Both the position numbers and the translations under genes were made by a program. Of a stretch of DNA of 34,399 bases, positions 3,576-18,189 are shown piece after piece; positions within the stretch are counted from its first letter, which is position 1, and every line of letters starts with the position of its first letter. A model generated the notes under the pieces. That model searched no databases and was not told the origin of the DNA. It saw only the letters and a list, made by a program, of their open reading frames with translations. The DNA is from Gloeocapsopsis crepidinum LEGE 06123 (GTDB lineage: Bacteria > Cyanobacteriota > Cyanobacteriia > Cyanobacteriales > Chroococcidiopsidaceae): assembly GCF_015207655.1 (NCBI RefSeq), contig NZ_JADEWN010000069.1, forward strand, positions 1 to 34,399, written 5' to 3'.

Positions 3576-4439
3576 TCACTTTTTCCCTCGCCCCTTCTTT
3601 CCTCGTTGCCAACTTTGACTACCACGATTGTTGCTAAACTCTCCTTTAGGAAACAGTCTTTGTTCTATCTGTTCGTAACTACCTTCAAAGTCGCAGTGAC
3701 CATATAAGGGACATTCATGACAATAAACTCCTGCAGTGTATTTTTCCAAATTCTCACGGTTGAAATAATAAGGCTTGTGGCTAAAAGTACTCGCAACCCA
3801 TTGCCATGACATATTATTACTTGCCGGATCGCCATCTAAAAGATGTTCTAAAAACCACTTTGCTCCTGTTTGCCAACGAACACGCCGCCAATGCACAATA
3901 TATGCTGCCAGCCACATTCGCATATGATTGTGTAAATAGCCTATTTCCCTTAAATGGCAGCTAAAGCTATCAATACAGACTCTCCCGCTCGTTCCGTTAA
4001 CAATATCATCCGGTAGTTCTTGTTGATATTCTTGAACTTTATAGCCAGTTTTATAAGGTTCTTGATCTTCCCAAATCCCATTACCTAATTTGACATACAA
4101 TCGTTGCCAATAGTCGCGCCACCCTAGCTCGTTAATAAGTTTAGTTGCTTCATCTTGATGTTGGATTTGCAAAACATAATCTCGAATTTCAGCTAAACTT
4201 AAAACTCCATAACGAATGTATGGTGAAAGCTTTGTTACTGCACCTGTTAAGAAATTTCGTGACTTAGCATACTGTGCTGCATCGACTTTTTCTAGTGTTA
4301 CTTCTGCAACTTTTCGTCCTCCTACTATTTGAGAAATATGATTGTCACGTTTTGCTGCATCTGGAAATTGCTCGCATAAGTAGGCAACTAATTCATCACG
4401 GCTGCCGAATTCACGTCGCATATTCTTGCTCATTTGCAC
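3576..4439 (-). CDS. FAD-binding domain of a photolyase/cryptochrome as a stand-alone protein
   Basis: This 287-residue protein is the helical FAD-binding half of the photolyase family. Visible hallmarks are the TKLSPYIRYGVLS loop that contacts the FAD phosphates, WRDYWQRLY, the helix MRMWLAAYIVHW, and DGDPASNNMSWQWVASTF followed by KPYYFNREN. All are standard in photolyases. The antenna-binding N-terminal half is absent here and is encoded at 2323-2748. A short cysteine cluster (CHECPLYGHC) near the C-terminus is unusual, and its role is unknown. The lysine/arginine-rich tail is low complexity. A second ATG six bases in is an equally possible start. Confidence 0.85.
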   Translation of the reverse strand: MQMSKNMRREFGSRDELVAYLCEQFPDAAKRDNHISQIVGGRKVAEVTLEKVDAAQYAKSRNFLTGAVTKLSPYIRYGVLSLAEIRDYVLQIQHQDEATKLINELGWRDYWQRLYVKLGNGIWEDQEPYKTGYKVQEYQQELPDDIVNGTSGRVCIDSFSCHLREIGYLHNHMRMWLAAYIVHWRRVRWQTGAKWFLEHLLDGDPASNNMSWQWVASTFSHKPYYFNRENLEKYTAGVYCHECPLYGHCDFEGSYEQIEQRLFPKGEFSNNRGSQSWQRGKKGRGKK

Positions 4440-4548
4440 ATTTTTTATATAGTTTACTTATCAATATTCAATTGAAAATTAATTACAAAAATAATACTCT
4501 TTAAAAGATAACATAATTTAATTATTAGATTTCTCCTCTTGTCAAAAA

Positions 4549-5172
4549 ATGATTCAAATCATCCAAGCTCCTAATGTTGGTATTGCCTACTTAGAGGAAA
4601 AGTTTGGTCTTCAGCTAACTAATGAGGAACAGTTTTTTACAGAATGCTTAGAATACCATCTAGATGCTGAGCAAGAAAGATGTTATCTAGACAGAGTTAA
4701 ATCAAATTACTTAAGTCTTATTAAGCAACGCCCAATTTTAGAAGAACTAGCAAAAATGGTAGTGTTATCACCATTACTTGATTTGGTAGGTTTTTATCGT
4801 CCTCCTTTTTATGTAGAAACAGAAGAATCTGTAGAAATTAGACAAGAAGATGAAGGAGAAGTCGTAAAAGGTAGAATTGATGTATTAGTTTTAAAGCATC
4901 AATTCTGGCTACTTGTTATCGAATCAAAAAGTACTGTATTTTCTTTGCATACAGCAATACCGCAAGCTTTAGCTTATATGCTGAGTAACCCTTATCTAGA
5001 AAACCCAGTATTTGGATTAGTTACGAATGGTAGCGAATTTATATTTCTTAAGCTACTGAAACACAATATTCCTCAATATGCATTGTCTGAGCAGTTTACG
5101 CTGCTCCAGCGTGAAAATGAGTTATATAAAGTTCTCGGTATATTAAAAAATATAAGACAAGTACTAAGTTAG
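4549..5172 (+). CDS. PD-(D/E)XK nuclease-like protein, type I restriction R-subunit N-terminal type
   Basis: This 207-residue protein has the nuclease core GRIDVLVL then WLLVIESK, giving candidate metal-binding residues D111, E125 and K127. A following segment (AIPQALAYML, GLVTNG) is typical of the HsdR N-terminal-like proteins common in cyanobacteria. There is no helicase domain, no methyltransferase and no specificity subunit nearby, so a restriction role is not established. Such orphan proteins are widespread in cyanobacteria. The stop lies 5 nt before the cysteine desulfurase ATG, so the two genes are probably cotranscribed. Confidence 0.75.
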   Translation: MIQIIQAPNVGIAYLEEKFGLQLTNEEQFFTECLEYHLDAEQERCYLDRVKSNYLSLIKQRPILEELAKMVVLSPLLDLVGFYRPPFYVETEESVEIRQEDEGEVVKGRIDVLVLKHQFWLLVIESKSTVFSLHTAIPQALAYMLSNPYLENPVFGLVTNGSEFIFLKLLKHNIPQYALSEQFTLLQRENELYKVLGILKNIRQVLS

Positions 5173-5177
5173 GAAAT

Positions 5178-6341
5178 ATGGCTAATCGCCCGATTTATTT
5201 AGATAACCATGCAACTACACCTGTAGACGAGCGCGTGTTAGTAGCAATGTTACCGTACTTTACGGAACGCTTTGGAAATCCATCAAGTACAAGTCATCTT
5301 TATGGTTGGGAAACTGAAGCGGCGGTTAAACAAGCACGGAATACCTTAGCAGAGGCAATTGGTGCGACGCCAGAAGAAATTATCTTTACAAGTGGGGCAA
5401 CAGAAGCAAATAATTTAGCAATTAAAGGTGTTGCAGAAGCTTATTTTCAGAAAGGGCGGCATATTGTTACTGTACAAACTGAGCATAATGCAGTGCTTGA
5501 CCCGTGCGAGTATTTGCGATCGCTTGGTTTTGAGGTAACATTGTTGCCTGTACAAAATGACGGATTAATTGATTTAGCACTTTTAGAAAAGGCGTTTCGC
5601 CCTAATACCGTTTTAGTTTCCGTGATGGCGGCTAATAATGAGATTGGCGTGTTGCAGCCTTTGGCAGAAATTGGGCAAATGTGCCGCGATCGCAATGTCC
5701 TATTTCATACTGATGCCGCGCAAGCGATTGGTAAAATTCCGCTAGACGTGCAGGCGATGAAAATTGATTTGTTATCAATGACTGCACATAAAGTTTATGG
5801 TCCTAAAGGTATTGGTGCATTATACGTACGGCGGCGCAATCCTAGAGTACAACTCGCACCACAGTTACATGGTGGAGGACACGAACGCGGAATGCGATCG
5901 GGAACGCTGTATCCTCCGCAAATTGTTGGATTTGCAAAAGCGGTAGAAATTGCGTTAGTAGAACAAGAAACGGAAGCTAGACGCTTGACTGCGTTAAGAG
6001 ATAAGTTGTGGCAACAGTTGAGTCAAACTGGAATTCATCTGAATGGACATCCTACGCAAAGATTACCAGGAAATTTGAATATTTCTGTGGAAGGTGTGGA
6101 TGGTGCAGCATTGTTACTCGGATTGCAGCCTGTGATGGCGGTTTCTTCAGGTGCGGCGTGTTCTTCGGCAAAAACTACGCCTTCTCACGTTCTGATGGCG
6201 TTGGGGCGTACTGAGAAACTCGCTTATGCGTCGGTTCGGTTTGGAATTGGGAGATTTAATACAGATGAGGAGATTGATCGCGTGGGAGAATATGCGATCG
6301 CAACGATTGCTAGTCTGCGTCAGCAGGCGATGATTGTGTGA
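5178..6341 (+). CDS. Cysteine desulfurase, NifS/IscS group I
   Basis: A PLP-dependent enzyme of 387 residues that takes sulfur from L-cysteine as an enzyme persulfide for Fe-S cluster and thio-cofactor assembly in the cytosol. It shows H104 in TEHNAVLD, the cofactor-contacting DAAQAIGK, the Schiff-base lysine K205 in TAHKVYGPKG, and the catalytic cysteine C328 in the loop SSGAACSSAK. The long active-site loop and this length place it in group I (IscS/NifS) rather than SufS. AGGAA just before the ATG overlaps the end of the upstream nuclease gene, which suggests coupled expression. No nif, isc or suf partner is adjacent, so a housekeeping or accessory role is inferred. Confidence 0.93.
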   Translation: MANRPIYLDNHATTPVDERVLVAMLPYFTERFGNPSSTSHLYGWETEAAVKQARNTLAEAIGATPEEIIFTSGATEANNLAIKGVAEAYFQKGRHIVTVQTEHNAVLDPCEYLRSLGFEVTLLPVQNDGLIDLALLEKAFRPNTVLVSVMAANNEIGVLQPLAEIGQMCRDRNVLFHTDAAQAIGKIPLDVQAMKIDLLSMTAHKVYGPKGIGALYVRRRNPRVQLAPQLHGGGHERGMRSGTLYPPQIVGFAKAVEIALVEQETEARRLTALRDKLWQQLSQTGIHLNGHPTQRLPGNLNISVEGVDGAALLLGLQPVMAVSSGAACSSAKTTPSHVLMALGRTEKLAYASVRFGIGRFNTDEEIDRVGEYAIATIASLRQQAMIV

Positions 6342-6372
6342 CGAAGCTTATTAGGTGCAGAGTCGCAGAGGA

Positions 6373-7389
6373 TTATAGCCATTGAGGGGGGGTTGGTAGG
6401 GTGGTGTAGAGTTGTTTGAGTTTTTGGATGTCGTGGTGGAACCAGGTGTGTAGCCAATGATTGTAGGCTTGAATTGCGGTTTGTTCGGGTTGGGTGTGGT
6501 TGATGATTTGGGCGATCGCGTGTCCTGCCATCATACCTGACATGATTGCTTTAAGTACACCGTGGGAAGCTGCGGGATCGAGGACTGCGGCTGCATCGCC
6601 AACGAGGAAGTATCCTTTACCTGCTAGATGTTCGACAATGCGCCAAGTGACATCGGCGGAGTTGGTTCTCATTGGTTGCAGTTGGGCAAATTTTGGAGGA
6701 ATCCAGTGTTTATCGACTTGTTGCTGGAAGGATAATCGCGTCCATTGGTACAGTCGGGGGCGTACTTGGGCTGTCCATGTCCAACCTTGATGATCTGCGG
6801 CGATCGTGGGTGTCTGTTGGGAACATTCTCCAATAGCGTAACCGTAGCGGGCAATTAGTCGAGGAGTGTAATGTGTAATTAGGAGTTTTAATTGACGTGC
6901 TAGCCAGTGTTGACTTCCTGTTGCATCCACAACAAAGGTTGAATGTAAAGCGCCTTGTGATGTTTCTACACCTGTCACTCGATTATTATTCAATAGTATT
7001 GCTTTAGCGTGGCACGGTTGTAGTACTCTGACTCCTAAGTCTTGAGCATGGTTGAGTAAAGCAGCATCAAAATCTGCCCGCCAGATCTGAAAGCCACGCC
7101 ATACGCCTGCATCATCTTTACCGTAGGGGATAAATTGCGATTGATTCCATTGCACATATATTCCTGTGTGACGCAATAAGTCAGAAGTTAAAGTTTCAGC
7201 AACACCTAATTGTTGTAGTAAAGGTTCAATTCCTGGGTGCAGTGTTTCTCCAGGGCGATCGCGCGGAAATTGTTCGCGTTCAACGATCGTGACATTTAGT
7301 CCAGCTTGAGCACATTGTATCGCTGTCGCAGTGCCTGCGGGTCCTGCACCGAGAATGAGTACATCTATTGTTTCTTCAGATCGGTTCAT
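6373..7389 (-). CDS. LodB-like FAD-dependent oxidoreductase
   Basis: A 338-residue flavoprotein with an N-terminal FAD dinucleotide motif GAGPAG (residues 14-19), RPGETLHPG (45-53), and GDAAAVLDPAASHG (264-277). This is the pattern of the flavin monooxygenase/tryptophan-halogenase-like group that includes LodB. LodB proteins install the cysteine tryptophylquinone cofactor in LodA oxidases. The ATG overlaps the end of the LodA-like gene by 14 nt, the arrangement typical of lodAB pairs, and implies translational coupling. It has a WTWTA segment rather than the exact WxWxIP motif of flavin halogenases, so halogenation is less likely. A geranylgeranyl-reductase-like role would be the alternative if the neighbour were not LodA-like. 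Confidence 0.75.
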   Translation of the reverse strand: MNRSEETIDVLILGAGPAGTATAIQCAQAGLNVTIVEREQFPRDRPGETLHPGIEPLLQQLGVAETLTSDLLRHTGIYVQWNQSQFIPYGKDDAGVWRGFQIWRADFDAALLNHAQDLGVRVLQPCHAKAILLNNNRVTGVETSQGALHSTFVVDATGSQHWLARQLKLLITHYTPRLIARYGYAIGECSQQTPTIAADHQGWTWTAQVRPRLYQWTRLSFQQQVDKHWIPPKFAQLQPMRTNSADVTWRIVEHLAGKGYFLVGDAAAVLDPAASHGVLKAIMSGMMAGHAIAQIINHTQPEQTAIQAYNHWLHTWFHHDIQKLKQLYTTLPTPPQWL

Positions 7390-9646
7390 TGACTACACAT
7401 CGAAATTCACTATCGTCTTGTTGCCAACACAAAGTATCCTGTGTTATTTGGCAAGTGAAACGATTTCGCACGCGCAGACGTTTGCGACGGACATCGCGGG
7501 TAAGTTGTTCGCTTCCTTGAACTGTGGCAAATACATATAAATAGCCAGAACCTTGCAATGTTGATTGGGCGCGATCGCTTCTTGATGACCAATCGGCAAT
7601 TTTTTCCGCACAGACGAGTATCAACTGAGTCGTACTGACTGTATCGTTTGGCGGTAATACGCGAATGCAAAAGTGTAAGGCTTCCATGCGTTGAATCAGT
7701 TCTCTACTATCTACCTGCGCGAGTCCGGATACGCGAATTTGTCCTGCAAGCGCGTTAGAAATGTAATCAGAACGGTCTTTATTCGCAAAATTGACAAATA
7801 GTCCATCAAAGTCTTCAAAAAATGGTCCATACTCGCCATCCCATCCCTTTTGTGAGGTGACTTCTGCAGCTTTTACTCGTGGATGCTGTGGGTAATAACC
7901 GAGTTCGCTATCGAGTAAAGGTAATGCTGTCGGTGCAGAAAGAATTCCAAAAGTTCGTGCAGCATCGGGTGCAACTGCAGGCCAAAATGAATTTAGCGCC
8001 GCACAAAGCTTAGCATCTTCAGGAAAAGGACTACCCAAACCGTAAGCTGCGTAGAAGTTTCCTTGGTTATCTTGCCCTAATGATACATCCCAGCCAGGGG
8101 CAAAAACATTAGAAGCTGCATCAGGAAGAAAACTGACTAAGCTATCAAGTTGACTTGCGACAGGATTAGTATTACGAGGTGCAGTACTAACGATCGCGGC
8201 GATCGCTGTTTCATTGCGTTGAAAAGCTTTTGCGTTACTATTCGGTAAAAGTAGTTCTGGATTTGGGGGTTGTCTACCTTCAGATAAGGGTGATGGTCCT
8301 CCTTGACTAAATTGATCGCGTAAAGTCGGTAAAAAGTTATCTACCCAACGTTCAATGGCGATTTGATCGGCGAGGGGAAAGAAATCTGGGGCTGTTACTA
8401 AAGAATATGCTGGACGCACCGCAAGATTTCTAGCTAAACCATTCACTTTGACACTAATGCAACCATCACAAGAATTATCGCTAAAGTGTGCGGCTTCATA
8501 GTTTCCATCAGCAAGAAATCGTAAAAATTCGTCTTCTGAGGCAATTTCTTGATTCAAGTCAACTAATCTTTGTTCGCCGGTTGCACTTGTTGCTACCAAA
8601 TGTCGCATATTGACGTATTCAGGTGCTTCGCGTCCTCGACCATTTGCGGCAATCTGATAAGAGGTCCAAAATCGATTGTTAAAGTTTTCTGGCGGTACCT
8701 GAAACCGGACAATTTCATCGCGTCCAGTGACAGAATTGCGCTGCGTTGAGGTGTAAACTAACTGTGGTGTTGGCTGTGGTACAAGCAAAACCGAGGCATT
8801 GACTGATTGTAATTGTACTAAGTCACGCGAATTATGCGAATCGCGCACAAATGGAGGTTTATTAATATCAAATCCACTTAAAACAGGAATTCCACCACGG
8901 GTGTGTACTCGCTGTAGTTTTTCGTTGCGGTGATATTCGAGAAACTCCAAGGTGATATTTGCATCGCGCAAGCATTCGTCACCAGGAAACAATTTATGTA
9001 CAGGAAACAAAAATTGTCGCGTGCGATCGCCTGATTGTTCTTCTAAAATGGCATCATCGATACTCGGACGACGTTCTACGGCAAGAAAAGCGGCATAACG
9101 TGCGGGCATGACTGCAAGGCGATCGCCATCGTCAGATTCTACCCAAAAACTACGCCGAGCAGCACTGTAATTTGCGACTTCTGTCCCCACCCGCGCCACT
9201 CCAGTGCGTGAAAATGCCATATCTGCATGAATTCCATGCGGACTCCGTGCTGCAATACGATACTGATACGCAAATACTGCAATAACTGCATTTGGAAAAT
9301 CGGCTAAGCTACGATTTGCGAGGCTATAGATGTAGTTTTCAATAACATCCAACTCTGCCAAGGTAGGATAAGCTTCAGAGTTGTTATTGACAGAATGCAC
9401 CGCTGAACTTGCTAGCGCATGATACAACAAACTACGTGCAGGGCTTCCTGGTTCAATACCGCGAATTCCATCTGCTGCAAAATCAGTAAATCCTGGAAGA
9501 TTGCGATCAATTGTTGATAATTCTTTTGTCAGTTCTCGCTGTAAGTCAGTTGCAGTAATATCTAAACCATGATGTAAAAGTAAGTCTCGCCATCCTTGAA
9601 GCGCTAGGCGATCGCAAACTTGTTGTACTTGATCAATTAAAGCCAT
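7376..9646 (-). CDS. LodA-like cysteine-tryptophylquinone amine oxidase candidate
   Basis: This 756-residue protein has no signal peptide. Residues 514-566 contain VFAPGWDVSLG, C548, then WPAVAPDAARTF, which recalls the Cys and WPAxxPD stretch of the LodA/GoxA family. W602 in GWDGEYGPFF lies 54 residues further on and is my candidate partner for a Cys-Trp quinone. LodA enzymes oxidise the side chain or alpha amine of amino acids and release NH3 and H2O2. A good ribosome site (GGAG, 7 nt before the ATG) supports the start, and the overlapping LodB-like gene supports the family call. The first 500 residues match nothing I recognise with certainty, so this is a divergent member at best. The substrate is unknown. 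The decisive test is a profile match to the LodA N and C domains. Confidence 0.6.
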   Translation of the reverse strand: MALIDQVQQVCDRLALQGWRDLLLHHGLDITATDLQRELTKELSTIDRNLPGFTDFAADGIRGIEPGSPARSLLYHALASSAVHSVNNNSEAYPTLAELDVIENYIYSLANRSLADFPNAVIAVFAYQYRIAARSPHGIHADMAFSRTGVARVGTEVANYSAARRSFWVESDDGDRLAVMPARYAAFLAVERRPSIDDAILEEQSGDRTRQFLFPVHKLFPGDECLRDANITLEFLEYHRNEKLQRVHTRGGIPVLSGFDINKPPFVRDSHNSRDLVQLQSVNASVLLVPQPTPQLVYTSTQRNSVTGRDEIVRFQVPPENFNNRFWTSYQIAANGRGREAPEYVNMRHLVATSATGEQRLVDLNQEIASEDEFLRFLADGNYEAAHFSDNSCDGCISVKVNGLARNLAVRPAYSLVTAPDFFPLADQIAIERWVDNFLPTLRDQFSQGGPSPLSEGRQPPNPELLLPNSNAKAFQRNETAIAAIVSTAPRNTNPVASQLDSLVSFLPDAASNVFAPGWDVSLGQDNQGNFYAAYGLGSPFPEDAKLCAALNSFWPAVAPDAARTFGILSAPTALPLLDSELGYYPQHPRVKAAEVTSQKGWDGEYGPFFEDFDGLFVNFANKDRSDYISNALAGQIRVSGLAQVDSRELIQRMEALHFCIRVLPPNDTVSTTQLILVCAEKIADWSSRSDRAQSTLQGSGYLYVFATVQGSEQLTRDVRRKRLRVRNRFTCQITQDTLCWQQDDSEFRCVVNEPI

Positions 9647-9668
9647 AATGTCTCTCCAATGCGCTGTC

Positions 9669-10913
9669 TCATACGTTAATTTCTTGTTTCACAGAATTTA
9701 TTTTCTGCGGTTTTTCGTACAAAAAGTTTTTAGCAACACTGTCAAAGAAGTTTGGATCTTTCCAATAACCACCATGTGCTTTCGCACCCCAAGCTGCAGT
9801 AAAATTAAGCTGTTGATTATTTACATCTTCGTAACAGTCTAAATTGCCACTAATTGGATCTTTTCTGTGATAATAGTTAAACCATTTTAGATGCTGCATT
9901 TGATAGCATACTGGATTCTTTCTGAAAAATGATTTTAATTTAGTTTGATCGGTAATAACTGATGACTGCATCCGAAAAGAGGTAAGTTGTTCAATAATTC
10001 GCTGCCGTACATACTGAGTTTTTGCAACTTTCTCTCGTAAGAAAAATGCAATTTTATCTAGAGGTGAACCGAAAGTAACTAATCCTTGGATTTTATTTAA
10101 GTGTAATTCTTCAGGTGTGACTTTATTTTCATTTAAATCAAGGGAAGTTTTGATACACAATTCATTTAAAGTATCATAAGCGATCGCACTTCCCAACGAA
10201 TGACCAGCAATGATAACTTGGTCATATTTGGCTTCTTTATCATGAAGAATTTCTTCTAAAAAAGTTTGGGATTCTGCTAATATCTTTCGCCGAATATTAA
10301 AGTAAGGAGATTTGCGATCTGTAGTTGTATAAATAGCAATATCGCCAACATAACCCACAATGCTAGGAATTACTAACTTTTTGCTATACGACCAAGCTGA
10401 TTTAAAAAAAGAACCAACTGGCAATAAGTTTAGAGTAGAAAGTCCTAACCATGCTCCTACTCTCAAAACGGGATATAGTAAGCTAAAGAAATATATAAGC
10501 CAAGCAAGTTTTCTGAGAGGAAACCGGCGGTTTACCTTCATATCTAGATGCTGATCGTAAAACTTGAAAGTTCCGTGTAGAGTTTTTTGCATCCATTGCA
10601 GAACTTCACAAATTTGAACTTTCTCCTCAGTTTGATATGCCCAATAGTATTCATGAACGTCAATTAACCAGTCTGCTTGACTGTTTTCTGAAGTTAATCG
10701 AACAAAACTCTCTGTCCAAATTGAGTCATTTGCTTGTTTTCTTTTAGCAAGTCTATGTGATAAATCAAAAGATAATTTATCGCCAAAATAATCAACTAAG
10801 CCACGGGTAAAATTATCTAGAGTATCAAGAAGATTTTGATCGCCAATACCGTGAATAACAATAATTGCTGTTCTACCTTGTGGAACGAGAGAATTAGATT
10901 CTGTATTAACCAT
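9669..10913 (-). CDS. Lipase-like alpha/beta hydrolase with a hydrophobic segment
   Basis: A protein of about 414 residues. The oxyanion-side motif VIHGIGDQN comes early, and the nucleophile elbow is VIIAGHSLGSAIAYD. A late AHGGYWKDPNFF offers the probable catalytic His. A hydrophobic stretch in the middle (LIYFFSLLYPVLRVGAWLGL) could anchor it to a membrane. The substrate (lipid or ester) is unknown. I start it at the ATG ending at 10913 (MVNTESNS); the longer reading begins with TTG at 10991 and has no ribosome site. The stop lies 22 nt from the LodA-like ATG, so the two genes are almost certainly cotranscribed. It may supply or clear a substrate for that enzyme, but this is conjecture. Confidence 0.75.
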   Translation of the reverse strand: MVNTESNSLVPQGRTAIIVIHGIGDQNLLDTLDNFTRGLVDYFGDKLSFDLSHRLAKRKQANDSIWTESFVRLTSENSQADWLIDVHEYYWAYQTEEKVQICEVLQWMQKTLHGTFKFYDQHLDMKVNRRFPLRKLAWLIYFFSLLYPVLRVGAWLGLSTLNLLPVGSFFKSAWSYSKKLVIPSIVGYVGDIAIYTTTDRKSPYFNIRRKILAESQTFLEEILHDKEAKYDQVIIAGHSLGSAIAYDTLNELCIKTSLDLNENKVTPEELHLNKIQGLVTFGSPLDKIAFFLREKVAKTQYVRQRIIEQLTSFRMQSSVITDQTKLKSFFRKNPVCYQMQHLKWFNYYHRKDPISGNLDCYEDVNNQQLNFTAAWGAKAHGGYWKDPNFFDSVAKNFLYEKPQKINSVKQEINV

Positions 10914-11026
10914 AGCTATTGTAAAATTAGTAATCAAATTGACTTCAATAAATATGAGTTGTGCCCTAGGTAACTTACCTGATGACTGCAACTAACATTG
11001 AAAATTACTCTTCCTAATAAAGAAAA

Positions 11027-11055
11027 AGTAGGGTAAAGAGGGAATATACCCTACT
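11027..11055 (-). terminator. Intrinsic terminator after the heme peroxidase gene
   Basis: On the minus strand AGTAGGGTA, an 11-nt loop and TACCCTACT form a perfect 9-bp stem, followed at once by TTTTTCTTT. It lies 25 nt past the peroxidase stop codon and before the hydrolase start. It therefore separates, at least partly, peroxidase transcription from the hydrolase-LodA-LodB genes. Confidence 0.8.
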
Positions 11056-11080
11056 CTTTGGTCTTGTACGGAGTGCTTAA

Positions 11081-12676
11081 TTAATCACCAATTGGATTAA
11101 TATCATTAACAAGCCTGAGTAAATCAGCCATTGTAAATGTTCCTGGATTTTGTGCAGGAAGTGTTGGTTTCCAATCAGGTTTTCTTGCTAAGAATGAACT
11201 ACTATCTTTTTGCAATAAACCGACAAAAACTTCAGCAACAATGCGGCTGCCTACTTTTCCTAAATGTTCGCCGTTGCCTTGAATTTCTGCTTCTTTAAGA
11301 ATGTAGTACCATAAAGGAGATTCAATATCAAAACCATGTTCTTTAGCAACTTTGCCATCTTCTCCTGTTGCAATATCGGCAGGTGATAAGGGTTGAAATC
11401 CCATCAATTTAGCAACACTTTGACCAGGTGGTAAACCTACTTTCAGTCCGCGTAGTAAGTTTCTTACTGCTAAAGATCTCGGTTCTGGAACGTTTGGCAA
11501 GTCTTTAAGAGGATCAACAAGTAAAGGATCTAATTTACGACTTAAACCTACTGGTATGTTTGAATCAATTTCAAAAAACCTTCTCCAATCAATAATCCAG
11601 TTACTAGGAAGTGTAGGGTTAAGTCCTAGCGGTGTATCTCTTCTTCCTGATTTGGCAGTAAATTCAAAGAGGAGTTGGAGTGTGGCACTGTCAAACTTGC
11701 TATCTGTTTCTAGGAAGGTAAAGACTCGGTTATAGTCGTATGCTGTGCGTACCATACTGTGTCCGAGGCGGTAAGCAGCAACAGAAAACTCTAGTGGAAT
11801 AAATGCATCGCCTTGAGGTTTGTAGAAAGATGGTCCCTGATTGAGAACAAGATTGAGTTGTTCGTTGTCAAGAATACGCTTGAGAAAATCATGGAGAACA
11901 ATCCACTGATAGTGCCAAATAACTAAATCTCTCGCTTCTTCAAATGCAGACTTGCGGATAGGAGATTCTTGTTGAATTGTGCCATCTTGAATGCCTTGCA
12001 CTACCTTATTGTGGAACTTGAGGAACGCAAGATGTAATTGAGAAACAATCAGATTTTCATCATTCCGAGGATCGCCGAGTAGCCCCAGCATACTCGATGC
12101 GCGGGGAATATCATTTGGTAGTATGCCTAATTGTTCGCCTTGTCTTCCTGTAGGACTTTCAGTAGTTTGTCCGATCAAGAAAAACTCTGGTCTTTCAAGT
12201 TCGTAAAGATAGGGTTGCACCTCTGGACCTGCACCATAGAGGCTATCTAGGTCAAGCATTGGGGTGCGGAAGTTTCTGAGTGCTAAAGGATCGTTAAGTG
12301 TTTCTTGCAGCGCAGTGATATCAAAAGTGATGTCGTGGTCGATAAATTGTCCTAAATATGTATAACCTGCAGGAACTGTTTTATTGTCGCCTGCAGGATC
12401 ATTTTCACTCGGATCGTCTGGAAATTTAGGATCAGTCATGGCATTTCCTAGGGCTTCCAAACTCTTTTTAAACTCTTCTAAACTTTTATTTGCAGGTGCT
12501 AGCGGACGCAATTCGGGAAATAATCTGCCAAACTTACCTGTAGGGACAAATTGACCAATCGGTTGATTGTCTTCTTTGCGCGGACCAAAGCCATGCATTC
12601 TCCCAACACGTTCTCCTGCAGGTCTACGTGGAGTAAAACCTTGAATTTTGCTTTGAATTTTTTGCTGTATATTCAT
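11081..12676 (-). CDS. Animal-type heme peroxidase (peroxidase-cyclooxygenase superfamily)
   Basis: A 531-residue peroxidase that uses H2O2 to oxidise halides or organic substrates. By analogy with myeloperoxidase, GQFIDHDITFD carries distal Q110, D113 (heme-ester Asp) and H114. GDPRNDENL carries catalytic R204 and E207 (heme-ester Glu), and YRLGHSMVR carries proximal H306. All expected heme-pocket residues are therefore present, including both residues that form ester bonds to heme in the mammalian enzymes. There is no signal peptide. The N-terminal segment (GFTPRRPAGERVGRMHGFG) is like that of other bacterial members. It lies upstream of the hydrolase, LodA-like and LodB-like genes on the same strand. 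A LodA product (H2O2) would be its co-substrate, which makes a shared pathway plausible. Confidence 0.88.
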   Translation of the reverse strand: MNIQQKIQSKIQGFTPRRPAGERVGRMHGFGPRKEDNQPIGQFVPTGKFGRLFPELRPLAPANKSLEEFKKSLEALGNAMTDPKFPDDPSENDPAGDNKTVPAGYTYLGQFIDHDITFDITALQETLNDPLALRNFRTPMLDLDSLYGAGPEVQPYLYELERPEFFLIGQTTESPTGRQGEQLGILPNDIPRASSMLGLLGDPRNDENLIVSQLHLAFLKFHNKVVQGIQDGTIQQESPIRKSAFEEARDLVIWHYQWIVLHDFLKRILDNEQLNLVLNQGPSFYKPQGDAFIPLEFSVAAYRLGHSMVRTAYDYNRVFTFLETDSKFDSATLQLLFEFTAKSGRRDTPLGLNPTLPSNWIIDWRRFFEIDSNIPVGLSRKLDPLLVDPLKDLPNVPEPRSLAVRNLLRGLKVGLPPGQSVAKLMGFQPLSPADIATGEDGKVAKEHGFDIESPLWYYILKEAEIQGNGEHLGKVGSRIVAEVFVGLLQKDSSSFLARKPDWKPTLPAQNPGTFTMADLLRLVNDINPIGD

Positions 12677-15510: not shown

Positions 15511-18189
15511 TTATTGTAGATTCAACGAACCGCGTAACAACATCACAGTGCATTTTGCCCGACTAGCGATCATAGCCGGAATATTGCCTTTAATTGTTTG
15601 TTGCAATAATCCTTCGCGACTTGCTCCCAGCATGACAACATCAATATTGTCTTTTTCAATTAAATCGAGCACGCCATCAACCACAGAAGAAGCTTTCACC
15701 GGAGTTGCAACAACTGTCGCCACAAAATGACGTCGCCGAATTAAATATTGCAGTGCTGTTTTCAATACTTTCATATCAGGCTGAGTTTCTGACAGGGGAA
15801 AAATCTGACACAACCGAACGTAAGGCGCACTACCTATACTAATTAACCCAGGCAGCAGTTTGACTGCTACATTTGCATTAGGACCACCTGCCATTGGCAC
15901 AAGCCAGCGATTAAAATTTGGAGAAGCTTGCTCTACATCTTGTAATAAAGTTCCAGTATCTGTGTCTTGAATAGCTAGTTCTTTACTCGAACTGAGTTCT
16001 TTAACGTTTGAAGCTGTGCCAAATCTTACCAAAACAACATCACAAGTTGCTTGTCGAATTAAGGTATCAACAACATTCCCAAAAACTCTACCTGGAGTAA
16101 TTGTTTTTCCTTTCCAACCCATCAACAATAAATCGATATGGCGTTCTTCTACTGTTTCTAGAATTGCTTGCGACACATCATGTGCAACGCGAATTTGCGT
16201 ATGAATCGGAATATTCCATTTTCTTGCTAAAATTTCAGCTTCGCGCAACAACCGCCGACTTTTTGCGGTACTCACTTCAGTTTCTGCAGGGGAACTACGG
16301 CGAGGAACGAGAATAATTTGCAGACACTCTAACTCATAATGACGTTCGCGGGCGATCGCTGTTGCTAAATGTAGTAAAGAAACAGCGGTTTGAGGATTTG
16401 CTAATGGAACAAGTAACCTTCCTCTCCCAATACTCGGCGATCGCGTTTGATAAACTACGTAAGAAGGCTGTGGTTGGGGACCAATTTCGCGTGTTTCACC
16501 ATTGAGCTTATCAGCTTCTGCCCGAATAATATCAGCCCGCGTGATAATGCCAATTAGTCTTTTGTTTTCAACTACGGGTAAACGACTCAAGTTAAACCGA
16601 TCTAACCGATACAACACCTCACTCAAACTATGCAAAGGATGAACTGTTACTGGTTGAGGTGTCATGATTTCGCTTAACAGCATATCCCCAGAAAGTTCTA
16701 GTTCTCGCGCTTTAGCTAAGTCTGCTTGCGTGACGATTCCAACTAATTTACCTTCATCAACGACAGGAAAGCCGCGATGTTGAGAGCGTGAAAATGCTTG
16801 TATGGTTTCATCTAAACTTAATTGCGCTGCTAAAGTTTCTACGCGTGGTTGCATCACATCTTTAGCTTTGAGTTCAATTAAAAGTCCTTGAATAGGACCT
16901 TCTTTTGGCAAACGAATGCCTTTTAATTCCAAAAGTTTGTCATATAATGAGCCAGGGAAAAACTTATCTGCAATCAGGTACGCTGTCACTGAACCAATCA
17001 TTAACGGCAACACCAAGTTGAAATCTGTTGTCATTTCAAACACAATGACGATCGCCGTAATCGGAACCTTGGAAACTACGCTAAAAAATGCCCCCATCCC
17101 TGCTAGTGCGTATGTAGGTGGCGAACCAAATCCAAATAAACTTTGTTCAGCGACACCAACGAGATATCCTAAAGACGAACCCAAAATTAGACTCGGTGCA
17201 AACAATCCTCCAGGCGCACCCGAACCAAATGCAATAAGTGTAAGCGTAAATTGCGCAACAAAAGCGATCGCAGCTAAAGACCAATCTGCGCTTCCTGCTA
17301 TTAAAAACTCGCGTAAACCCGTATTATCGCGAAACGCTGCGGGGAGAAAGGCAACGATTAAACCAGAAGTTCCACCAGCGATCGCCATGCGTAGGGGTAA
17401 ACCCAAGCGCGATTGATTATAAAACTTTGAGCTAGCAATAATTCCTCGGTTAAACAATGAACCGAGGACTCCTGCCAAAATTCCCAGTAACAAAAAAAAG
17501 GGCAGTTCAGCAAGCGAAAAACTTGTTTGAGAAGCTGTTAAGACAAGATTCAGTTGTAAAGTTCGTCCCCCTAAGATACGCGAGACAACCGCACCAATAA
17601 ACGAGGCGATAATTGCTGTACCTAGAGTTAATCCCGATAAATCTTGCAGTAACTCCTCAATCACAAATAATACCCCTGTAATGGGGGCATTAAATGCTGC
17701 TGCTAATCCTGCACCTGCACCCGCTGCAATCATTTGTCGTCGATGTTCTGGAGATGTGGGAACCCAGCGACTAAATTGTGCAGCTAAAGCCGCACCGACA
17801 TGAACAGTAGGTCCTTGTCTTCCTAGAGTTAATCCTGAACCTAAAGCAATTGTTGAGGTAATTAGTTTAACTAAGGCTTCGCGCAGTGAGAGTTTAACAG
17901 GTGCATCTGCAAGACTCGCCTTAACTTGCGGAATTCCACTACCTGATGCTTCAGGTGCTAAACGTTCTATGAGAAACCCAGCTATGTATCCTAAGAAAAA
18001 ACCAATTCCTGGTAGTATCAGCCATGCTGGAGATAAGTTAGCGGTTTGAACTCGCCATGCACCAATCCAGCCGACTCCGACACGCAGTACGATAGCAGAA
18101 AAGGCGGCGACTAATCCGATTAAACAGGCTTCAGCGATCGCTAAGCGACGGCGCGGTAACAGCCATTTATGGAAGGGCTGAACTGACAT
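15511..18189 (-). CDS. ClC-family chloride channel/transporter with CBS pair and two USP domains
   Basis: An 892-residue inner-membrane protein. Residues 18-435 form the ClC membrane domain, with the anion-filter motifs GSGIP (82-86), GRQGP (123-127) and GAPGGLFAPSLILG. The gating glutamate of the GxEGP motif is Gln125 here (codon CAA). The inner proton-path glutamates in VIEEL (178-179) are kept. Residues about 443-560 form two CBS domains that likely bind adenine nucleotides. About 590-720 and 760-890 are two universal-stress-protein-like domains (DLLLMGWKG; DVVMLGASREG). Loss of the gating Glu argues for channel-like or uncoupled conduction rather than Cl-/H+ exchange. The nucleotide domains suggest control by energy state. 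It is a single gene, with no obvious operon partner except the downstream repeat. Confidence 0.92.
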   Translation of the reverse strand: MSVQPFHKWLLPRRRLAIAEACLIGLVAAFSAIVLRVGVGWIGAWRVQTANLSPAWLILPGIGFFLGYIAGFLIERLAPEASGSGIPQVKASLADAPVKLSLREALVKLITSTIALGSGLTLGRQGPTVHVGAALAAQFSRWVPTSPEHRRQMIAAGAGAGLAAAFNAPITGVLFVIEELLQDLSGLTLGTAIIASFIGAVVSRILGGRTLQLNLVLTASQTSFSLAELPFFLLLGILAGVLGSLFNRGIIASSKFYNQSRLGLPLRMAIAGGTSGLIVAFLPAAFRDNTGLREFLIAGSADWSLAAIAFVAQFTLTLIAFGSGAPGGLFAPSLILGSSLGYLVGVAEQSLFGFGSPPTYALAGMGAFFSVVSKVPITAIVIVFEMTTDFNLVLPLMIGSVTAYLIADKFFPGSLYDKLLELKGIRLPKEGPIQGLLIELKAKDVMQPRVETLAAQLSLDETIQAFSRSQHRGFPVVDEGKLVGIVTQADLAKARELELSGDMLLSEIMTPQPVTVHPLHSLSEVLYRLDRFNLSRLPVVENKRLIGIITRADIIRAEADKLNGETREIGPQPQPSYVVYQTRSPSIGRGRLLVPLANPQTAVSLLHLATAIARERHYELECLQIILVPRRSSPAETEVSTAKSRRLLREAEILARKWNIPIHTQIRVAHDVSQAILETVEERHIDLLLMGWKGKTITPGRVFGNVVDTLIRQATCDVVLVRFGTASNVKELSSSKELAIQDTDTGTLLQDVEQASPNFNRWLVPMAGGPNANVAVKLLPGLISIGSAPYVRLCQIFPLSETQPDMKVLKTALQYLIRRRHFVATVVATPVKASSVVDGVLDLIEKDNIDVVMLGASREGLLQQTIKGNIPAMIASRAKCTVMLLRGSLNLQ

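Follow-up and report, generated by a model that had tools for sequence, protein, structure and literature searches.

Does a row of four genes in a cyanobacterial genome, with an animal-type heme peroxidase at one end and an oxidase-like protein and its flavoprotein partner at the other, encode a module that both makes and uses hydrogen peroxide (H2O2)? The question is raised by positions 6373-12676 of a 34,399-nucleotide stretch from Gloeocapsopsis crepidinum LEGE 06123 (contig NZ_JADEWN010000069.1), which we refer to in its full length as the window. A sequence-only reading had proposed such a module, consisting of the peroxidase, an α/β hydrolase, a LodA-like oxidase and a LodB-like flavoprotein. 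Our analysis indicates that the last two genes quite probably form a divergent LodA/LodB pair. For the fuller proposal, that this pair is an amine oxidase of the cysteine tryptophylquinone (CTQ) type, matured by the flavoprotein and feeding H2O2 to the neighboring peroxidase, we see roughly even chances.

As proposed, all four open reading frames (ORFs) lie on the minus strand. The peroxidase (11081-12676, 531 residues) is followed after 89 nucleotides by the hydrolase (9669-10991, 440 residues when read from a TTG codon) and, after another 22 nucleotides (9647-9668), by a 756-residue protein, the putative CTQ oxidase (7376-9646). The latter overlaps by 14 nucleotides in the ORF calls (7376-7389) with a 338-residue flavoprotein, the putative maturase (6373-7389). 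Both the 22-nucleotide gap and the overlap had been given correctly.

The nature of the 756-residue protein is central to the question. It matched no Pfam family at E-values up to 1, a LodA_C search gave no match at the window locus, and PDB searches with the protein and its relatives returned no LodA structure, only two formate dehydrogenase chains (E-values 0.56 and 1.1). Pfam and NCBIfam matches of the relatives to Ig-like_POM152 (0.03) and LptC (0.013), each in 3 of 17 members, were at chance level, and one of the 17 matched QH_gamma weakly (0.071), the CTQ subunit of quinohemoprotein amine dehydrogenase. The protein heads an unlabeled family that the curated models miss.

We therefore turned to profile-profile comparison, aligning 25 relatives with 13 LodA-type proteins in hhalign. 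The reference set comprised two cyanobacterial proteins found via LodA_C (L005, L006) and eleven from plasmid records (L099-L109), eight of which are annotated as LodA/GoxA family or GoxA and three of which come from unannotated stretches. The comparison scored 40.5 (E-value 8.4e-4), a value reached by none of 200 column shuffles (mean 16.7, standard deviation 2.7, maximum 27.8), by the reversed-profile control (19.6) or by any of 30 unrelated comparisons that set the two families against 15 other neighbor clusters (maximum 24.7). An earlier comparison against only two LodA proteins had given a probability of 1.4%. The alignment joins the stretches GVARVG...Y and D..DG...AYSLVTAPDFFP to their LodA counterparts. 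In the cofactor region, as judged by eye, the motifs PG, P-[WF]-x2-D-x3-C and W-P-A occur in identical order in both families. The pattern P-[WF]-x2-D-x3-C followed by W-P-A, composed after both families had been seen, was found in 25/25 members of the new family, in 11/13 LodA-type proteins and in 0/191 other ORFs of at least 200 residues.

Three residues of this region are invariant among 17 family sequences, and their codons in the window were checked on the minus strand: Asp544 (8015-8017) of the D-x3-C motif; Cys548 (8003-8005), which aligns by motif with the LodA-type cysteine and is the predicted CTQ cysteine; and Trp555 (7982-7984), the predicted CTQ tryptophan, which lies in a W-P-A motif as in LodA-type proteins. 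Trp519 is also invariant, but is part of a PG-W-D motif ahead of D-x3-C. Trp602 was ruled out as the CTQ tryptophan, being replaced by cysteine in L052 whereas Trp555 is invariant.

With the LodA/GoxA family (PF18417 LodA_C, NF038172, NF038173; L-lysine epsilon-oxidase and glycine oxidase) the protein shares the order of motifs, its size and a flavoprotein gene directly downstream. It differs in matching no curated model, in having ~140 additional N-terminal residues ahead of the first common motif, and in the spacing of Cys548 and Trp555, which is 7 residues compared to 65 in LodA, where the CTQ residues are C516 and W581 (PMC4417212); L006 also has a short spacing. The aspartate near the cofactor is described as strictly conserved in tryptophylquinone enzymes, although its mutation in GoxA left cofactor formation possible (PMC7876137). 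The label LodA-like, which no profile assigns, is thus carried by the controlled profile-profile comparison, the collinear motifs and the flavoprotein partner. We consider the protein a likely but not proven distant relative of LodA and do not assign it as a family member.

The description of the partner as a LodB-like flavoprotein held up. Its three best NCBIfam matches were QhpG (2.7e-38), GoxB (2.1e-30) and LodB (8e-28), all under the curated cut-offs (132 of 240, 106 of 400 and 97.5 of 400 bits, respectively), while flavin adenine dinucleotide families in Pfam matched over cut-off. It resembles these maturases further in its gene position behind the oxidase, and differs in forming a separate group in an unrooted, poorly resolved tree. 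Its top Pfam match is Trp_halogenase and its top PDB match a halogenase chain, with a QhpG chain (7ctq, E-value 5.2e-9) also among the matches. Together with the lack of a curated match for the 756-residue protein, this could mean that the latter is no quinoprotein and that the flavoprotein acts elsewhere, say by halogenating or hydroxylating a small molecule or a different protein. We judge this very unlikely: the D-x3-C and W-P-A motifs occur in all 25 members, and the halogenase and LodB/QhpG models overlap, since LodB partners of ordinary LodA genes on plasmid records are themselves annotated as tryptophan 7-halogenase.

A pairing of the two genes is also seen in the relatives. The flavoprotein ORF adjoins the LodA-like ORF in 21 of 25 loci, a count that omits the Burkholderia LodA-like ORF, which the ORF script missed; as called, the frames overlap in 17 of these 21. 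In G442 and G414 (G numbers denote genomes, L numbers loci) the flavoprotein gene is present on a different contig, in Burkholderia and Cupriavidus it was seen only through weak tblastn matches, and on the Acaryochloris plasmid stretch it was not found, the chromosome not having been searched. Behind the LodA-like gene of G442 (L041, ~5400-7450), where the flavoprotein is gone, there are broken frames resembling transposase remains.

When 388 genomes of the order were searched with a profile of the family, 24 matched, one of them (G123) with a 28-residue fragment only, leaving 23 with full-length genes; an evenly drawn sample of the phylum gave matches in 3 of 386 genomes, the G123 fragment among them. 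L003 (Oscillatoria sp. HE19RPO 303) and G462 appear to be one and the same contig, with nearly equal BLAST values, and were counted once. Plasmids of Acaryochloris marina, Burkholderia stagnalis and Cupriavidus carry further relatives, and flanks were taken for all 23 long-match genomes and these three plasmids. No further members were found in the families of G396 (one of two genomes, itself) and G491 (one of eleven, itself); among viral contigs, 47 pattern matches included no relative, and phages yielded none. A 2015 survey, which used BLASTP with GoxA at E < 1e-10 and reported LodA in 9 of 313 cyanobacterial genomes, is likely to have overlooked the family, whose best pairwise E-value to our 13 references was 3.4e-4, even in this very small set.

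The peroxidase is what its label said, an animal-type heme peroxidase (PF03098, E-value 1.5e-19, 70.4 bits against a cut-off of 25). The distal Gln, Asp and His, the R-x2-E motif, the proximal His and the Asn are retained in all 12 homologs compared. We take the distal Gln, Asp and His to belong to the MPO-like catalytic set. R-x2-E and the His-Asn pair are expected of an active peroxidase (PMC4420034), and the residues kept here are as expected of an MPO-like enzyme predicted to be active. A fatty-acid dioxygenase was rejected as an identity: the proximal-His stretch RLGHS is MPO-like and lacks the Tyr three residues before the His that we take to mark such dioxygenases. In family match and catalytic residues the protein resembles other cyanobacterial PF03098 peroxidases of the peroxidase-cyclooxygenase superfamily, such as LspPOX and the peroxicins (PMC4420034). 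It differs from those in 15 other fetched loci in its position beside a LodA-like gene; in these loci no LodA-like gene was seen and no neighbor was common to most, shared neighbors occurring mainly between close relatives.

We then asked how often the oxidase gene and a peroxidase gene lie together, using whole-genome searches with PF03098 and DyP_N in 37 genomes, including all 23. An animal-type peroxidase is found upstream on the same strand in six of the 23: the window's genome (G000), G442, G454, G431 and G406, which belong to one family (f1), and G396. In a seventh, G491, DyP genes flank the LodA-like gene on both sides, and on the Acaryochloris plasmid a DyP gene lies 2.6 kb downstream on the opposite strand, behind a lipase gene. 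In a LodA tree of 19 rows (from which L014, L034-L037 and L040 of the g174 genus had been dropped beforehand, and which does not include L057), all these fall into one subclade, formed by f1, G392, G396, G491 and Acaryochloris. Eight of its nine cyanobacterial genomes or plasmids have a peroxidase nearby, the exception being G392. Burkholderia sits on the side of this subclade on a very long branch; adding it and Cupriavidus makes the count 8/11. G491 and Acaryochloris are sisters (99/100), the other forks there being poorly settled. In the peroxidase comparison, the f1 proteins group with an unlinked one of G538 (99/97) and that of G396 has a long branch whose position is uncertain. The linkage either arose about three times or is an old one that was heavily reshuffled.

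The peroxidase of G396 (L053, 4936-6699, plus strand) has an N-terminal beta/gamma-crystallin stretch. Two short DyP-like pieces (E-value 7e-5; L053, ~4614-4830) lie just before or within the start of the same gene, which hints that one peroxidase type replaced the other. In G298 and G661 the oxidase and peroxidase genes are on different contigs, and their peroxidases are ~61-68% identical to that of the window.

Could the LodA-like/LodB-like pair nevertheless be the entire functional unit, with peroxidase and hydrolase as mere neighbors? The 15 genomes of the other LodA subclade all lack a nearby peroxidase, the peroxidase occurs without LodA in the 15 other loci, and the hydrolase is clearly recent. 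On the other side, linkage is seen in three lineages and with two unrelated peroxidase superfamilies, a rough estimate puts the chance of a position within 5 kb at 1.4e-3 for the single animal-type gene of G396 and at 2.1e-5 for both DyP genes of G491, and DyP is also found beside ordinary LodA genes in proteobacteria. 'Any heme peroxidase', it should be said, is a category that we widened after the data had been seen. We regard a pair with unconnected neighbors as rather unlikely and, given a divergent LodA/LodB pair, on balance lean towards functional coupling of the peroxidase.

From the genes, their overlap, the conserved residues and the recurrent linkages we infer the following course for a CTQ-type oxidase that supplies the peroxidase. 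In the LodA-like protein, Cys548 and Trp555 would be joined into a cysteine tryptophylquinone near Asp544. Oxygenation of the tryptophan would fall to the flavoprotein, the part that LodB, GoxB and QhpG play for their own partner proteins. Once mature, the enzyme would oxidize a primary amine (an amino acid, a peptide or a small amine) with O2 and release H2O2, which the neighboring MPO-like peroxidase would spend on oxidizing a halide, thiocyanate or an aromatic compound, so that the peroxide stays local; in the sister lineage, DyP-type peroxidases would take that role. Animals feed MPO-type peroxidases through a dedicated oxidase, which provides an analogy for such relays. LodA-type enzymes are known to release H2O2 and to have roles in antimicrobial activity or in biofilms (PMC4417212; PMC4699246).

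Several results weigh against this proposal. The LodA_N/LodA_C, LodA and GoxA models match neither the window protein nor any of 17 family members at E-values up to 10, and the positive controls L005 and L006 do match the curated LodA models. The hhalign probability was just 23.8%, and the aligned part stops short of the cofactor region. An AlphaFold2 model computed from two sequences (the window protein and L003) reached a mean pLDDT (predicted local distance difference test) of 27.5 and gave no usable structure. Sixteen of the 23 genomes have no peroxidase nearby, some of these loci being on short contigs or contig ends (G527, G535, G414), and there is none near the Burkholderia or Cupriavidus genes. 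The five f1 genomes represent a single evolutionary event. Of 353 genomes, 33 have the peroxidase, and just seven of these also have a full-length LodA-like gene (the G123 fragment is uncounted). On plasmids, none of 36 records with ordinary LodA was among the records listed with the window's type of peroxidase (40 of 41).

The gene layout would also fit if the peroxidase protected the cell by removing the H2O2 of the LodA-like oxidase, and a catalase-type domain is fused to some LodA-like proteins (PMC4417212). We consider protection quite unlikely, as ordinary catalases would serve it better and most relatives manage without a peroxidase. MPO-like and DyP peroxidases, moreover, depend on a reducing substrate and by themselves scavenge H2O2 poorly. 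Another role for the peroxidase would be in assembling the quinone cofactor with H2O2. A precedent is di-heme MauG, which acts in this way for tryptophan tryptophylquinone (PMC7876137), and the Acaryochloris stretch, where LodA and DyP are found and a flavoprotein gene is not (in the plasmid part searched), would be in line with it. Such a role strikes us as most improbable, however: the flavoprotein is retained in lineages with and without a peroxidase, the whole other subclade (15/15) does without one nearby, and LodB and GoxB are described as required maturases (PMC4417212, PMC7876137).

The hydrolase is not supported as a member of the putative CTQ oxidase-peroxidase unit. It carries a GHSLG motif and resembles Lipase_3 weakly (E-value 0.00067), with a score below the Pfam cut-off, so that its label stands only in part; an ATG further in looks more likely as its start than the TTG. 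Among the loci examined it was seen only in the window and in G442, two genomes of one genus, where it sits between the peroxidase and the LodA-like gene; in G454, the third genome of that genus, the peroxidase adjoins the LodA-like gene with no hydrolase between. It is a late, lineage-specific insertion and accessory. The lipase of the Acaryochloris plasmid shows no detectable relation to the window hydrolase (blastp E-values ~0.4-0.6).

The conserved four-gene set of the sequence-only reading was accordingly not found: the window alone has all four genes together, and G442 has three, its flavoprotein gene lying apart. Relatives do keep the LodA-LodB pair in most cases and have a heme peroxidase nearby in several lineages, with the hydrolase in one other genome. 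Of the joint module, the oxidase-maturase pair and its recurrent link to heme peroxidases stand and the hydrolase drops out. The two findings which that reading had itself named as counting against it, four genes not kept together and a 756-residue protein without a LodA profile match, are both what we obtained; the weaker claim of a divergent LodA/LodB pair, often with a heme peroxidase alongside, survives them.

The association of quinone-type oxidases with peroxidases may extend beyond this family. A protein of ~330-390 residues without Pfam or NCBIfam match, which we call c45, occurs near DyP and LodA genes across phyla (L052 4610-5767, L055 14661-15647 and L168 14742-15872, minus strand; L169 8140-9258 and L178 ~9052-10041, plus strand) and directly adjoins DyP in G491 and Acaryochloris. 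Among 72,556 plasmid records, 25 have c45, 36 have ordinary LodA and seven have both, compared to 0.012 expected if independent, a contrast that is too favorable, as genes of every kind are more numerous on large plasmids. The two are at most 10 kb apart in five of these records (Mycetohabitans CP132745, Microvirga CP141049, Bradyrhizobium CP088279, CP049702 and CP096257, of which CP088279 and CP049702 resemble near-duplicates) and far from each other in the remaining two; an additional case is the Acaryochloris plasmid, which has the divergent LodA. Mycetohabitans has a one-strand row of LodB, LodA, two unknowns, DyP and c45, and on two plasmids of Bradyrhizobium c45, LodA and LodB lie with a DyP or DyP-like gene inside ~11 kb. 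DyP lies near ordinary LodA in at least 3 of the 36 records, counted among the 60 of 73 DyP records listed. The c45 of Microvirga sp. VF16 (L172, 9001-11490) forms a fusion with phospholipase D-like domains.

Loci of Nostoc sp. UHCC 0302 and Rhizobium sophoriradicis have c45 and DyP in the vicinity of genes for a radical SAM enzyme and for a ferritin-like protein that matches LodA_C, barely over cut-off in Nostoc and under it in Rhizobium. The Rhizobium locus also has an animal-type peroxidase, 35% identical to that of the window. Ferritin-like genes adjoined by a radical SAM gene were located at L007 418-2229 (minus strand), L173 4413-6308, L176 6765-8519 and L178 ~3984-5678 (all plus strand), and their products have an upstream LodA_C-type D-x3-C-x3-W stretch. 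Such sets are possibly another family with a self-made quinone and a different maturase. Ferritin-like genes also lie just ahead of ordinary LodA on plasmids of Azospirillum (L099, 1-530) and Hymenobacter (L109, 1-183), resembling those beside fungal lodA genes (PMC4417212).

Tentatively, and with chances that we put somewhat below even, these loci may be members of a widespread, undescribed type of mosaic cluster in cyanobacteria and proteobacteria. It would combine a protein-derived-quinone oxidase (ordinary LodA/LodB, the divergent pair, or ferritin-like/LodA_C with radical SAM) with two peroxidase superfamilies and c45, and would act as an H2O2-fed oxidation machine or, in the boldest form, in peroxidase-assisted cofactor assembly. 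In open-access PMC we found no paper linking LodA or CTQ-dependent enzymes with a heme or DyP-type peroxidase, nor LodA with ferritin-like and radical SAM proteins. The closest precedents that we saw in print are LodA-like proteins fused to a catalase-type domain and operons of LodA with tyrosinase and multicopper oxidase (PMC4417212). They too join a heme-binding or second redox partner to LodA, but through a fused catalase-type domain or copper enzymes, where the loci described here have separate animal-type or DyP peroxidase genes.

If the window's pair is what we propose, the LodA family would gain a branch missed by curated models, one in which Cys and Trp are closely spaced and which has a maturase of its own, and with it a new test case for cofactor-making by flavoproteins. 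To our knowledge, few enzyme types have self-made quinone cofactors. The recurrent pairing with two unrelated peroxidase superfamilies would likewise turn into a testable question, whether bacteria run local H2O2 relays from quinoprotein oxidase to peroxidase. Elsewhere in the window (15511-18189, minus strand), an 892-residue protein joins a chloride channel (Voltage_CLC) with CBS and universal stress protein domains.

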